Shown here: positions 7,826 to 50,800 of the stretch, in pieces | Layout of the letters: each line of letters starts with the position of its first letter | Position numbering within the stretch: the stretch's first letter is position 1 | Assembly (NCBI RefSeq): GCF_028583425.1 | Contig: NC_072791.1 | Location: 30,697,368-30,761,367, forward strand | DNA: 64,000 nt | Direction of reading: 5' to 3' | Source of the DNA: Eublepharis macularius | Taxonomy: Eukaryota; Chordata; Lepidosauria; Squamata; Eublepharidae | The notes under the pieces: generated by a model | The model's input: the letters and a program-made list of their open reading frames with translations, nothing else | Told to the model about the DNA's origin: nothing | The model's database searches: none | Translations under genes and position numbers: made by a program

Positions 7826-7958
7826 AGTGGTAAGTAAATGATATGTGGAATTATAATGGGCCATTTTATGGGTCCTCAAATCCCCTCTCTCTAGTCTTTC
7901 AATGACAAGAATGAAGTCTTTTCAGACATAGACATATAATTCTTTCTCTGTTCCTCAG

Positions 7959-8687
7959 AAAGAAGTTCATTGCCAGATTCCAGCATGAAAGCTGGGAGTT
8001 TTCTTATCGTATTGGAACTGTGTGGCAAAATGTTTTTATCCAATGCAGACGGTGGGATTTCAAGAGATCAAGAACAGCAGAGTTTCTTACACAATTCTTG
8101 GCCTTTCAATGACTCTGATAAACAATATCCACATCAAAACGTATCAGATCCAGCTGGTGAAGAAGAATCCACACCAGCCTTTTCAATGCACAACTTCACT
8201 GAGAGGAATGCCGATTTTGGATTTGATCTTTATCGGAAAATATCTCTGACACATGACAACAATATGTTTATCTCTCCTTTGTCACTGTCATTCATTTTGG
8301 CAGTTTTTACGCAGGCTTCCAGAGGGGAAACGCACAATCAAATTGTTAAAGCTCTAAACCTCCATGAGTTGGATATTGAAGGAAATCGGCTCCCAGCTTT
8401 TTTCCGCCAGCTGAAAAGCAATATCACCAAGAACAAGGAATTCACGCTTTTGCATGAAACCACCTCTTTCATCCAGAAAGACTTCGGGATAAACGACATC
8501 TTCCATAACATGTCAAAGCAATACTTTGACATGGAATTCCTGAAGGTTGATTTCCATAACTCTACTTTAGCTAAAAACATCATCAACCAGCACATTAAAC
8601 TAAAGACCAGAGGGAAAATCCCCACATTGTTTGATAAATTAGATCAGCAAGCTAAAATCGTTCTGGTGGATTACATTCATTTTAAAG
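7959..8687 (+). CDS. SERPINA10: SERPINA10 coding exon 1 (signal peptide, helices A to F)
   Basis: The acceptor AG is at 7957-7958 and the donor GT at 8688-8689. The start taken is ATG 7985, giving 234 codons plus one base (phase 1). Reading begins MKAGSFLIVLELCGKMF, a weak secretion signal broken by Glu and Lys. A short acidic stretch (GEEEST) stands where human ZPI has a long acidic tail. The serpin body follows from about residue 70 (FGFDLYRKISLTHDNNMFIS) and runs to VDYIHFKG. Six N-glycosylation sequons are visible (NDS, NVS, NFT, NIT, NMS, NST), fitting a secreted plasma protein. A TTG-initiated extension (MPDSS) is not needed. The exon is fully open. Confidence 0.88.
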
Positions 8688-12628: not shown

Positions 12629-12915
12629 AGACTGGGGCAGAAACCTGAAGCACAGCGCACACATTTCAAAGTTTATTGAATTGGGGGCAGAGGATTTCAC
12701 ATCCTTTCCTTTTTTTATGCTATCCAGCCAAAGTTAAGCCCCATTAATTTCACTGGGAGTGCTAAGCACATGTTTACATTGTAATAAATGGGTGAAGACT
12801 CCTTTATTAGCTTTAAATCTTAGCTTTAGCTGGGTTGTGCGTAACATATTTGTCAGTCAATATGAATAACCTTCAGTACAATGCAATAAGCGATTTCATT
12901 TCTGTATATCCTCAG

Positions 12916-13188
12916 GCAAATGGCTGCACCCATTTTCTACTACGTTCACAGAACTAGAAACCTTCTATGTAGACAATTACAATACTGTCCAAGTGCCCAT
13001 GGATGTTCAAGACAATAAGCATTGCCTCTACTTTTGATAAGATTTGCACTGTGTTGTGCTAAAGATTCCCATACAGAGGGATGTGCGCACATGCTGATTG
13101 CCATGCCTCGGGAAGGAGATTTCATTTCCCTGGAAGATCACTTATCGGCTGCCCTTGTGGAGTCTTGGCTTAGAAGCATGAGAACCAG
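12916..13188 (+). pseudogene. SERPINA10: SERPINA10 exon 2, disrupted by three frame breaks
   Basis: The acceptor is AG 12914-12915 and the donor GT 13189-13190. Frame from exon 1 reads KWLHPFSTTFTELETFYVDN and goes on to NKHC, then meets TGA TAA at 13034-13039. Relative to human ZPI there is one extra base near 13026 (STFDK follows in the next frame), one base missing near 13042 (LHCVVLKIPIQ returns to the first frame), and a third shift before 13091, after which MLIAMPREGDFISLEDHL and SWLRSMRT read to the donor in the phase exon 3 needs. All the normal exon is present, so this is decay by small indels, not loss. Confidence 0.82.
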
Positions 13189-13375
13189 GTACCATTGAGA
13201 GCATGTTTTTCATTGCTTAGATACTAGATTCCAAATGTTTTGATACAAACCAAAATGGTGGGTTAAAGGTGTTGCTGGGGATAGGAAGGGGGAGGAAGCA
13301 ACAAGGCACTTAAGGAGGGAAAGGGGCATAGCAGGTTAGAAGCTGAAACTTTGCCACCTCTTTCTCAAAGATAAG

Positions 13376-15041: not shown

Positions 15042-15189
15042 AAAAACGGATATTTACTTTCCAAAGTTCAAACTAGACCAAAAATACAACATGCATCAAT
15101 TGCTTCAAGATCTGGGAATTAAAGATCTTTTCTCTAACAAAGCGGACTTGAGCCCACTCACAGATCAGACATATGTAAAAGTGTCACAG
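15042..15189 (+). CDS. SERPINA10: SERPINA10 exon 3
   Basis: The acceptor is AG 15040-15041 and the donor GT 15190-15191. The exon is 148 bases: one base completes an Arg codon, then 49 codons in phase 0 at the end. It reads KTDIYFPKFKLDQKYNMHQL, then LLQDLGIKDLFSNKADLSPL and QTYVKVSQ. This is the conserved serpin stretch before the reactive loop (human FPKFKLDQKYEMHELL). It is open, with no odd codons, and contrasts with the broken exon 2. Confidence 0.9.
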
Positions 15190-17362: not shown

Positions 17363-17554
17363 GTCCTCCAAAGAGCATGTGTTGAAGTAGATGAGGCAGG
17401 AACCGAAGCTGCAGCTGCCACGGGATCAGATATCATAGCCTATTCGATGCCTCACATCATCCATGTGAATCGGCCATTCATTTTTATGATCTATGAAGAG
17501 TTCACAAAGGCCTTGCTGTTTGTGGGTAGAGTTGCCAACCCTACGGAATTCTGA
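17363..17554 (+). CDS. SERPINA10: SERPINA10 exon 4 with reactive-centre loop and stop
   Basis: The acceptor is AG 17361-17362. There are 64 codons including TGA at 17552-17554. It reads VLQRACVEVDEAGTEAAAAT, then GSDIIAYSMPHIIHVNRPF and EEFTKALLFVGRVANPTEF. The hinge EAGTEAAAAT is that of an inhibitory serpin. P1-P1' is Tyr-Ser as in human ZPI (ITAYSMPP), which sets it apart from other clade A serpins such as alpha-1-antitrypsin (Met-Ser). The C-terminal FVGRVANP block is canonical. Confidence 0.92.
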   Translation, partial: VLQRACVEVDEAGTEAAAATGSDIIAYSMPHIIHVNRPFIFMIYEEFTKALLFVGRVANPTEF

Positions 17555-41800: not shown

Positions 41801-44800
41801 GATCACCTTTAACTTGTAACACATTTTTTTAAAAAAAAATCTATAGCAATTTTTAAACATGAATTCAGGAAATCTCAACAGCAGATACACATTTTCCAAG
41901 CTACAAACTTTTAATCATGTAGGCTTGTCCAGGAGGAGAGAGGGACTGGCTGGCAACATAAGCCAGTTCCTACAGTGCCCCACCTGGGCAGCATTCATGC
42001 AGAAGTGCTGTGTGAAAGAACCAGGGCTGATACATGTGTAGGGATGTGTGCGCACACACAAAAATCCACAAAATCCAGATCTGGGATTTGGGGACCCCCC
42101 CCCCCCACACAAAACCTGGGATTCTCAAAATCCAAGAAAGATTCTCTGATCTGGTTCAGACAGATCAGAGAAATCCGGGTTAATTTGGCTGTTATTCCCT
42201 ATGGGGAAAACTATCCAAGGGCTATCTGAGGGGATGGGGGTATAATTTCCAAGAAACTTTACAAAAATCACAGGGAAACTAATCTTGACTGTCCTCTAAA
42301 GGCCCCCATCACAAGATTCAGGAAAATAGACTCTGGGGTAAATTCTGTGGGCCCCTAAACAAGGTGTGCTCAGCCACTTCATTGTTTCCTATGGGTAAAA
42401 AGTCAAAGTTGACTCCCACTGCAGAAACACACTGGGGGCAAGGCTGCTATGACCAAGGCACACTCCCAAATGAAAGCTCATCTCAAAGAAAGACCTAAAT
42501 AACCAAACTCAAGCAAGGTAATGGGATCTTCCCAGAACCAAAGTGAGTCAAGGGAACCAACATCAAAACAGAACCATGTCAAAACTGAGAATTCCACTCA
42601 AACCATAATGAAGCAAGGTACGCTGCCGCAACTTAGCTCACATTCACAGAAGACAGGTAGACAAGGAGAGCTCCTGCATGGACTGGCCGTTCACTCCCCC
42701 TTCCCTGTCTCATTCCCCCTCCCTCCTGCCTCTGCCTCACTCCCCTTTCTCTGCCTCCTCCCTGCCTCCAAAACAGGCATAAATTGCTGTTCTTCTTTGT
42801 AAGGAAACAGTATGGGAAAGAGCCAAGCTCCATTTCCCAAATTAATCAGGATTTATTCAGAGGTATCTGGGTACTCGGATCGGAACCAGGATTATCTAAT
42901 GTAGTCTGGGAAAGCCAAATTTTCTCAGATCAGCAAAAATCCATCTTTTTTCCAAATACCAGATCTAGATTGCACACCCATATACATGGGTGCTGATCAT
43001 GTAGTCAGTCAGAATTATTTACAGGCCAATGTAATTGTACAACTTTCTATACCTGTATAGCCGCTGTCCAGATGGAGACAATGAATTAATAGGGAAGCCA
43101 AAGAACATGACCTTGGAGTTATGGGAGACTTCAACTTCCCTGATGTGTGCTGGGAGACCAACTCTACCATATGTCCAGGGTCACATATCTTCCTGACCTG
43201 CCTGGCTGATAACATCATTTCTCAGATGGTGAAGGAAGTGGCAAGAGGCTTGGCCACATTGGACTCGTTATTAACCAACAAGAAAGAGTTGGTTGATTTC
43301 TTTTCACTCTTTTCCAATCCATTTTACAAGTCGCTGCACTTTGTCAACACTATGTGAAAACGACTTTTTCTCCAAAATGCCAAATTTTTACTCAAAACCC
43401 ATTCTATCTAAAAAATTCACTATAGTACTAGTTGCTTGGGTTATGGAAATCTTTATACTTTGTTTCTTTATCTGAAGAGCAATTAAGCCCATTACTCACA
43501 TAAATAATGATGACAGAATAGGGATCCCAGACCCCCGGTGGGGGCGGGGGATCCCCCGCCCCCACTCCCCACCCCGCTTACCTGAACAGTGGGGGGGGGC
43601 GCACCTTCCTTGTGTGCTCCCCTGTGGCACTCCTGCGCTCCGCAGTGCCTCAAAAATGGGTCCGATCCGTGGCAAAACGGCCCGTTTCCAGGAATGCTGC
43701 GCAGGAATGCTCCGCAGTGCCCAAATACAGGCCTGCCCAGGGGTCGTGCAATGACATCACTCCTGAAGTGACGTCATCACACCTATGGGGGCATGTGTGT
43801 GCACACTGCGCGCACTCACTCCCTTCTCCCCAAAGGTAGGTGCCAGGCCCCTGTCCCCCGCTGGGAGGTTGAGGGGGGCTGGCAACCATATGATAGAATG
43901 AAAAGCAGAAACAGTTTTCCCCTACCTTCTTCACAATGCTCAGGACATCTTTGTCTTTCTCCTCACACAGAAGTTTCCTGACACACAATTCCAGCTGCTG
44001 CAGTAAATGTTTATCAGTTGGAACCTTGAGAGTAGATTTCACTTTTGGCAACAGGTAGCAAAGCTTCATTCTGTTGCAGGAGGTAGGAGGAGTGGGGTAG
44101 AAAGATGTAATCAAACATGTGAGGAAATATAACATGAAAACTTTTTTTTAAATCACTCTGTGTGTGCGTGTGGCATAGCTTATGGCTTTTTAAAAAAGCA
44201 CTGCCATCTTAGCACACAGCTTCAACCATCACCACCATGATCCAGGTCAAACTATTCTAACTTGAGCTCTCTATGTGCTCCTCCTTTGCCACCTCCTTCA
44301 GCTTAAAACCGCTGGGGACAGAGGCCACACCATTCATGTGTTCTTTTAATATCATGATAGGTACTATACAGTAAAAACATGCTAAAATAACAAAACAGGC
44401 AATCCTGCCCTACCAGTGAATATGCAGGTTGGACTAGATGACCCTGGAGGTACTTTCCAACCCTATGAGTCTATGATTAACCAATTTCTCCTGGCCTGCC
44501 CCTGAATGATCCATTGGTATACATTAGGAAAACAGCCAAGAATAGCCCAAGTGCCAATAAGACCTGTATAGTTTGTTCAAGGATTCCAGGAAACAAGAGA
44601 GGCCTCATTGCCAAACACTTAAGAATGACACTTAAGATACAATGCCTCTTAATATACACCCTTAACATGCTGGCTGTCCTGTGGATAGTGTGTGCATGAG
44701 TGTGCTAACTAGCCCCTATACACTTTTATTAGGGATTTACTGGTTTGTGACACTAATCATTGCTTGCTTTTTCATATGAACATATTTTTATATAGTTCTT

Positions 44801-47800: not shown

Positions 47801-50800
47801 GAATGAGTCTCCTACAAAATAACCATTTTCAAGAATACACTGCAGAACAGAGGCATATATATGTTACTAGTAACAAATCCCATTGTGGGGAAAAATGCAA
47901 CTGGCTCTAGAAAGGGGAGGGCTGGAAAGCGGGCATTGCCTCCTCCTCCATGACTGTTCCTGGTTGGGTGAAGGCGGGGGGCAGACATTGCTGCTTGCAC
48001 CTCTCCTGATCCCGGCTGGGTGAAGGCGGGGGCAAGCACTGCCACCTGCTCCATGCTTGATCCCAGACGTGTGAAGGGGGGTGGGCATTGCTGCCTGCTC
48101 TGCGTCTGATCCCTGGTGGGTGACGGGGGAAGCAGGCATTGCCTCCTGTTCCACATCTGATCCCAGCTGGGTGAAGGTGGGCTGGCGGGTGTTGCCACCT
48201 GCTCCGCTCCTGATTCCAGCTGGGTGAAGGTGGGGGGGGTGCATTGCCACCTGCTCCACTCCTGATCCAGCTGACTGAAGGTGGGAGTGGGCATTGCCAC
48301 TTGCTCTGCTCCTGATCCTAGCTGGGTGAAGGCGGGCTGGCAGGCATTGCCACCTGCTCCGCTCCTGATCCCAGCTGGGTGAAGGTGGGGGGTAGGCATT
48401 GCCATCTGCTCCGCGCCTGATCCCGTCCTGGGCTTCCCACTGCAGTGCGCTCTCTGGAGCGACAGGCTGCCTCATCTGGGCTTCCCTCCACGGCAGCACC
48501 CTCTGGAGGCGCACCAGGGTAGGAAGTGAGTTGTCAGGAATACAGTTAGCCTTTTACATAGTAGGATATATTGGTGGGTTTTCCTGTACCTGCTCAAAGC
48601 TGGTATAATTTCCCCCTTTACCGGGTGTGAATTTGGCCCTGATAATGTCTTCTGATTAATTTAAGTGGATTGAAGTAAAGGAACCTATAAAGCTACCTTA
48701 GACTGAAGGAGACCACTGATCCATTCATTGGCCCATTGTCTACTCTGATAGAATGGGACTTTACAAAATATGAGATAGGCCTTTCCCCACGCAGGTATTC
48801 GAGATTCTTTAACAGAAGATACCAGGGGTTGAGGTTGGGACTGTATTAATGCAAAAGTGTTTGCTCCACCACTCTCCCTTCTTGTACAAAGCTCAATTTG
48901 AAATTAATGCAGGGAGCAAAAATTTACTGTGCAATATTACACATGCCCACTGTCTCTGTTTATATCGAGCTGCTTCACATGCAATGCCACTATGTCTTCA
49001 ATATCAGCACAGCAGCATAATGCCAGCCCGGCTTACTGATCTCTGATGTGCTGTAGCAGCTGGGCAGCCACTCCTAAGATGCTGGGCACATGGAACATCA
49101 GATAGACAAGTTCTTCTTGACTGCCAGCATCATATTTTAAAGCCTAACTCGACCCATAATCACCCTTCTTTTCACTTTAAGTACGTTGCTGTTCTCAGAA
49201 GAAACAGAAAATGACTTACGTTCAATCAGTTTCTGAATGACCTCATGCCTCTGCTCCTGCTTGCGATTGTAACGTAAGTAAATGCATAGGGTTCGAGCAG
49301 CAGCTTTTTGCACAGGCAAGACATTCTTCAGGAAAGAGAGAAAATATATTTAATCCCACTGGTGTCTCTACAAGGATACAAGGATGCGTGTTGTCTTATG
49401 AAGCGTGCACAAATAATTGAAAGTACAGCTAATGGAAAGCAGAAAGCAACTGAGACTTTGATATTGTCTCTTCAGAAACATGAATCCAAATGGGATTCAG
49501 CAAATACACACACACATCCAAAATAAAACAAACAAAATCCCTCATTTTTCAAATGTGAAAAGAATACTGGTGTGGGGAAAAAGTTCTGTGAAGTCAGTGC
49601 AACTTTTTGTTTTCTTCACAAATTAAAAAAGATCAAGGGTGAAGGGGGTGGGGAGCTGTATTAATATGCACTGGCTGACATGCCCCATCTGTTGAAATAA
49701 CTGAAGCACACTTTACAGGTGCTTCACTACATGTAGTCCTGAATCCTAAAACCAGAAGCAACTGGACAGTGCCACTCATAACAGTTTCCTAATATAGAGA
49801 AATAAGCAGATTTCAGATAAAAAAAGTATAATCCTCTGAGAACCAATGTGGTGTAGTGGTTAAAAGTGTCAGACTAGTAACTGGGAGAATCAGGCCTGAA
49901 TCCCCACTCTGGGCCAGTCAAACATTCTCACCCTAACCTATCCCATAGGGTTGCTGTGGGGTAAAATGGAGGAGTGAATTCTGTAAACCACCTTGGGTTC
50001 CCACTTGGTGGAATGGTGAGGCATGAATGAATGAATGAATGAATGAATGAATGAAACAGAGCAACTTGTTTTTGCTGCCCTGAAGTAATCACTGGAGCTT
50101 AAACTATATCTGTGCCCAGGAGAAGAGATCACCCATTTCTTTAATTTCAGTTTAATTTCAGTGATGTTTCTATTAAACAACACAGCGGAAAATATATTTT
50201 CCGATGAATCACACATCTGCATTTCTGAAGAAGGAAGTTTATTTCAATATGTTTTGTACTAAAACAAAAAGTCCTCTTTTGCTACCAGTTCTCTCCTTCC
50301 TTGTGCGTTAGTCCAGCCCCTCAGTGCTGCGAGCCTCACAAGGAGGGAAACTGAAACCTGAACTTCAGAGCAAGCAGATATCTTGCTAATGCCAGCCCTC
50401 TTCTTTTTCTCCTGCAGGAATAAATGCAGTGATCTGCTTCTGCCAAGGAAAAGAAAAAGAGCAGGTTCTGGGAAAAAGAGTGCCTTATCTCATTACCATT
50501 CTGCAACCTGCTGCCCAGAGGGCCTCCTGGGTCCATGTCTCGCATTTCAAACTGATTCATACTTTATTCTTTTATATTATTTATGAAGTGAGAATCAATA
50601 GATTAAGTAGACCTATACTGGCTTAGGTTGGGATAAATTGTAATTGTGAATCATCAATATGACTGCCAGCAATTTGACAGCATGTCTGTGAGAAGCTTTT
50701 TGACTACAGCGTCCTTATGTCAAAGCCCACCCCCTCCCCTGCTCATTTTAAACACAGGAGACGTTCCTGCAGAAGAAACAGGGCCTCTCAAATCCCTTCC

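Follow-up and report, generated by a model that had tools for sequence, protein, structure and literature searches.

Clustered frame breaks in exon 2 of the only SERPINA10 copy found in the gecko Eublepharis macularius: a possible recent null or a local consensus error

Introduction

The locus considered here raises a simple question: does this gecko still possess a working SERPINA10 gene, the gene of the anticoagulant serpin ZPI (protein Z-dependent protease inhibitor), when one of its four coding exons cannot be read in a single frame and the other three carry no defect? The question was followed in a stretch of 64,000 nucleotides (C2:30697368-30761367), termed here the window. The preliminary description of this DNA had offered a choice between a recent loss and a local sequence error. 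Both possibilities still stand and were narrowed by a search for further copies, by controls of base accuracy, by the conservation of the damaged exon and by the state of the partner gene PROZ, while old decay has become unlikely.

The SERPINA10 Locus

Positions below are those of the window.

7959 to 7984, plus strand: the first coding exon probably begins here with 5′ untranslated sequence (AG acceptor at 7957-7958; from the sequence and by analogy with human SERPINA10)
7985 to 8687, plus strand: SERPINA10 coding exon 1, intact (703 nt, 234 codons and one base, donor GTAACA; Pfam Serpin E 4.4e-35)
12916 to 13188, plus strand: SERPINA10 coding exon 2, disabled (length 273 nt against a required 274, net frame shift −1; AG/GT sites)
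15042 to 15189, plus strand: SERPINA10 coding exon 3, intact (148 nt; Pfam Serpin E 1.1e-11)
17363 to 17554, plus strand: SERPINA10 coding exon 4, intact, with the hinge, the Tyr-Ser reactive bond and the stop TGA (192 nt; Pfam Serpin E 2.9e-18)

In human SERPINA10 the first exon is non-coding. All four coding exons of the gecko gene are bounded by AG/GT sites, and exons 1, 3 and 4 score above the cut-off of the Pfam serpin model (PF00079), whereas the two open pieces of exon 2 stay below it (E 0.0003 and 0.038). The spliced read-through protein, with X placed at the three breaks, was compared with the sequences of solved structures, and the top four matches are all ZPI (4ajt, 3h5c, 3f1s and 4afx; 387-329 bits), with lower scores for Conserpin, the best non-ZPI structure (258 bits), and alpha-1-antitrypsin (211 bits) against the 387 bits of 4ajt. 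Exon 4 reads AYSMP, aligned to the AYSMP of ZPI, in which we take Tyr-Ser to be the P1-P1′ reactive bond. The hinge and this bond are common to the gecko gene and the solved ZPI structures (3h5c, 3f1s, 4ajt), from which it differs in that its exon 2 is not translatable throughout. As judged from its serpin fold, its best match, its Tyr-Ser bond and its cluster position, the gene is the SERPINA10 (ZPI) orthologue, in agreement with the strong ZPI similarity that had been described for its exon 2. The start of the protein reaches a best 8-residue hydropathy of 2.74 as compared with 2.96-3.56 in three paralogs, which is only somewhat lower, and a defective signal peptide is not claimed.

On this contig the run of clade A serpin matches (C2:30.28-30.71 Mb) has SERPINA10 at its downstream end; PPP4R4 would be the expected flanking gene. 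Several other members of the cluster were recorded. About 18 kb upstream of the window lies a clade A serpin (L066, C2:30679100-30679800, together with L034) in which exon 1 is broken in frame and a piece of the last exon is recognisable; it is a probable pseudogene near SERPINA10. Another member (L058, C2:30547400-30548250) carries one in-frame stop in exon 1. The last codons of exon 1 of L059 depart from the family and no donor was found at the expected exon 2 end of L046, these two (spanning C2:30517400-30524410) probably being the same gene. Three nearly identical tandem clade A serpin copies (L003, L004 and L001; C2:30640703, 30621081 and 30597716) are apparently recent duplications. A second serpin cluster is present at C7:34.58-35.24 Mb, where at least 16 matches, located on both strands, cover the profile from its middle to its end. 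Inside the window there are also a minisatellite at 47965-48424 (51-base unit, about 9 copies), where the minus strand is open for more than 200 codons, and at 43088-43357 a below-cut-off match to an endonuclease-reverse transcriptase domain, which may be a piece of a retroelement.

Frame Breaks in Exon 2

Since exons 1, 3 and 4 measure 703, 148 and 192 nt, exon 2 must be 274 nt long; it is 273. Its native frame runs for 39 codons, all but the last few of them ZPI-like, and then meets TGA TAA. Frame-shift-tolerant alignment of the exon to two ZPI rows places the damage as follows.

13002 to 13026, plus strand: range of the first frame break, +1 (the human row places it near 13020, the second ZPI row at 13002)
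13035 to 13040, plus strand: TGA TAA in the native frame; the open frame ends after 274 codons
13040 to 13044, plus strand: range of the second frame break, −1 (near 13042 by alignment)
13062 to 13078, plus strand: range of the third frame break, −1 (near 13077 by alignment; range taken by eye from the reading frames)

The complete exon with correct splice sites (AG/GT at 12916-13188), its three changes of frame and the absence of any defect from exons 1, 3 and 4 had all been described earlier and were confirmed here, as was the kept Tyr-Ser bond. The two stops had been correctly noticed as well, at 13034-13039, and actually lie one base downstream of that position.

The net −1 and the stops are independent of the alignment, whereas the +1/−1 pair depends on it, being supported by the shifted-frame peptide STFDK, which is identical to human ZPI. 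In the two comparisons the score rises by 44 and 45 units when three shifts rather than one are permitted, 16 of these units coming from avoidance of the two stops. In a control, two cost-free shifts gained 7-17 units in 11 paralogous exons that are open without any shift. A fourth shift adds 12 units in both ZPI comparisons and is read as noise, because it falls within what free shifts gain in these open exons. Three single-base shifts within about 60 nt explain the alignment of exon 2 to ZPI best. Exons 1, 3 and 4 (1,043 nt) have neither stop nor shift, and the roughly 100 nt of exon 2 on each side of the lesion cluster are unbroken. Under uniform placement, three lesions fall within 60 nt of the 1316-nt coding sequence with P about 0.006, and all three fall in exon 2 with P 0.009.

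Search for Other Copies and Rescue Routes

The preliminary description had named an intact second copy as the observation that would overturn its reading. DNA searches of the whole 2.24-Gb assembly (72 contigs) with exon 1 and exon 2, in which the best candidates were scored, returned this locus alone and gave no second copy of either exon. A serpin family search of the genome listed at least 112 matches, 111 of the 222 first-look candidates being scored, and the matches of the C2 cluster, read by eye, are other clade A serpins. The SERPINA10 gene described here is the only copy found, and it is this copy that carries the disabling lesions.

Could an alternative splice form or a hidden exon keep the gene working in spite of the breaks? 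The reactive-loop exon and the splice sites are intact, which speaks for such a route. Against it, tblastn with exon 2 gave no other match below E 0.2 in the window; rescue by skipping of exon 2 was rejected, since exon 1 joined to exon 3 is out of frame and runs into stops. From general knowledge of the serpin fold, a serpin deprived of the exon 2 strands is not expected to fold either. A gene that functions in this way is very unlikely.

Accuracy of the Assembly

How often does this assembly break a reading frame that should be open? Cadherin_2 is a protocadherin domain, and protocadherins have long single exons. Of the 88 listed Cadherin_2 matches, 82 sit within open frames that are 675 codons long or more and sum to 212,601 nt; the remaining 6 lie in shorter frames and may be pseudogenes, partial exons or errors. 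Counting all six as indel errors still leaves a probability of about 8e-10 that a given stretch of 60 nt would contain three independent errors. The second control comprised all clade A exons listed in the C2 cluster by the serpin family search, hence paralogs from the same contig, and here exon 2 was clean in 11 of 11 cases, exon 3 in 7 of 7, exon 4 in 6 of 6 and exon 1 in 10 of 13. The stops that this search flagged in some paralogous exons are located outside the exon, in the intron edge. Because 82 of the 88 Cadherin_2 matches lie in such long frames and all 11 paralogous copies of exon 2 are open, background error does not explain the breaks of exon 2: three of them within 60 nt are very unlikely to have arisen as independent random errors, while a local failure could still have produced them, as these controls do not make it improbable. 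The stretch is no obvious trouble spot, since it has an ordinary GC content (41-46%), no inverted repeat of 10 nt or more was found in 12850-13260 and there are no N bases in the 64-kb window.

Conservation of the Gene and of PROZ

Identity to human ZPI amounts to 66/164 in the serpin part of exon 1, 42/88 in exon 2, 25/49 in exon 3 and 40/61 in exon 4. Exon 2 is in line with exons 1 and 3, therefore it gives no sign of relaxed constraint, which is compatible with a very recent loss, where none would show.

PROZ was located at C3:46813287-46822706, after two other Gla genes on C3, which from their Gla sequence and order are presumably F7 and F10. Its reading covered six exons, namely the Gla exon, a pair of EGF exons, a pair of middle exons and the last one; all six look open, with splice sites read by eye. 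The EGF and trypsin domains were named by Pfam, the second EGF being below the cut-off, whereas the identity of the Gla exon and of the two middle exons is assumed from likeness and place. The last exon has protein Z as its best match (3f1s_B, E 1.4e-38). With these exons open, a co-loss of PROZ was not supported.

Explanations of the Lesion Cluster

Three breaks in 60 nt, with their P of about 0.006, argue against stepwise decay and for a single cause, which would be one complex mutation or a stretch of faulty consensus. Gene conversion and template switching were considered and set aside, as exon 2 has no other genomic match and no inverted repeat around it; a 16-nt direct repeat of 81% (12876-12891 and 13005-13020) ends just at the first break, and being so short it is probably due to chance. 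That SERPINA10 was lost long ago and the loss became fixed in the lineage is highly improbable. Such a history would agree with the fact that the lesions disable the only copy found, and losses do occur in this cluster, where the serpin upstream of the window and two other members are damaged. It is contradicted by the 1,043 nt of sound coding sequence in the neighbouring exons, by good splice sites, by a conserved reactive bond, by an exon 2 that is itself still conserved and by a PROZ gene that looks open.

This leaves the two single causes. According to one of them, the animal has an intact gene, but poor or few reads over a short part of exon 2 left one-base indels in the consensus. We consider this quite possible, if short of probable. 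In its favour, the three one-base lesions lie close together, are separated by conserved residues and sit in a gene otherwise free of defects; exon 2 also matches its neighbours in conservation, and PROZ is open in the six exons examined. On the other side stand the general accuracy of the assembly, the ordinary base composition of the stretch and the lack of an inverted repeat, and an error density of this kind should extend into the exon 2 flanks of about 100 nt, which are unbroken. We lean towards the other cause, a real and very recent unitary null of SERPINA10 in the sequenced haplotype, which is favoured over the consensus error, the weights given to these two being a matter of judgement and not of computation. 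The recent null has its own difficulties: neutral decay is unlikely to place three one-base lesions in about 60 nt and to spare the remaining ~1,250 nt, and the lack of relaxed constraint, the open PROZ and the lack of any repeat that could serve one template-switch event, except the 16-nt direct repeat, also count against it.

Consequences of a Recent Null

If the null is real, the breaks of exon 2 would cut the protein short after 274 codons, ahead of the reactive loop, and no working inhibitor would be possible. Between the stop and the exon 2-3 junction downstream of it there are 151 nt, therefore by the established rule nonsense-mediated decay is expected, and the SERPINA10 message is predicted to be removed by it. 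The lesion would be too young for decay elsewhere in the gene to have set in, and the sequenced animal or its stock may carry the null as a polymorphism and not as a fixed loss. We infer lesions present in the DNA of the animal, decay of the mRNA and lost control of factors Xa and XIa.

A loss of SERPINA10, even if real, would not be without precedent, since a loss in the dog and null alleles in humans are known. In the dog, SERPINA10 and PROZ are both given among 28 canine-specific losses, and the loss of SERPINA10 was called from coding lesions among other criteria (PMC2644713). Lesions in SERPINA10 are likewise present here; for the dog, however, PROZ is listed as lost too (PMC2644713), whereas in the gecko PROZ looks open and no lesion falls outside a single stretch of exon 2. 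Human nonsense alleles, e.g., R67X and W303X, are null alleles of the same gene, and according to one review not all studies confirmed their link with venous thrombosis (PMC9110684). They are single nonsense changes that segregate in people, in contrast to the several shifts found together in the gecko. A literature search for SERPINA10 together with squamate retrieved no paper, and a loss of ZPI with protein Z kept may be new. That a reptile lineage has recently and truly lost ZPI while keeping its partner protein Z as an orphan cofactor is, at present, an unlikely proposition.

What would either outcome mean? If the breaks are a consensus error, they are a warning that an assembly with more than 200 kb of clean long frames can contain a local patch that mimics gene loss. 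If they are real, the gecko would carry a ZPI null with protein Z retained, and the separate roles of the two proteins could be examined in a living vertebrate. Such an animal would offer a natural test of whether protein Z acts in the absence of ZPI, and of the way in which ZPI-free blood keeps factors Xa and XIa under control.
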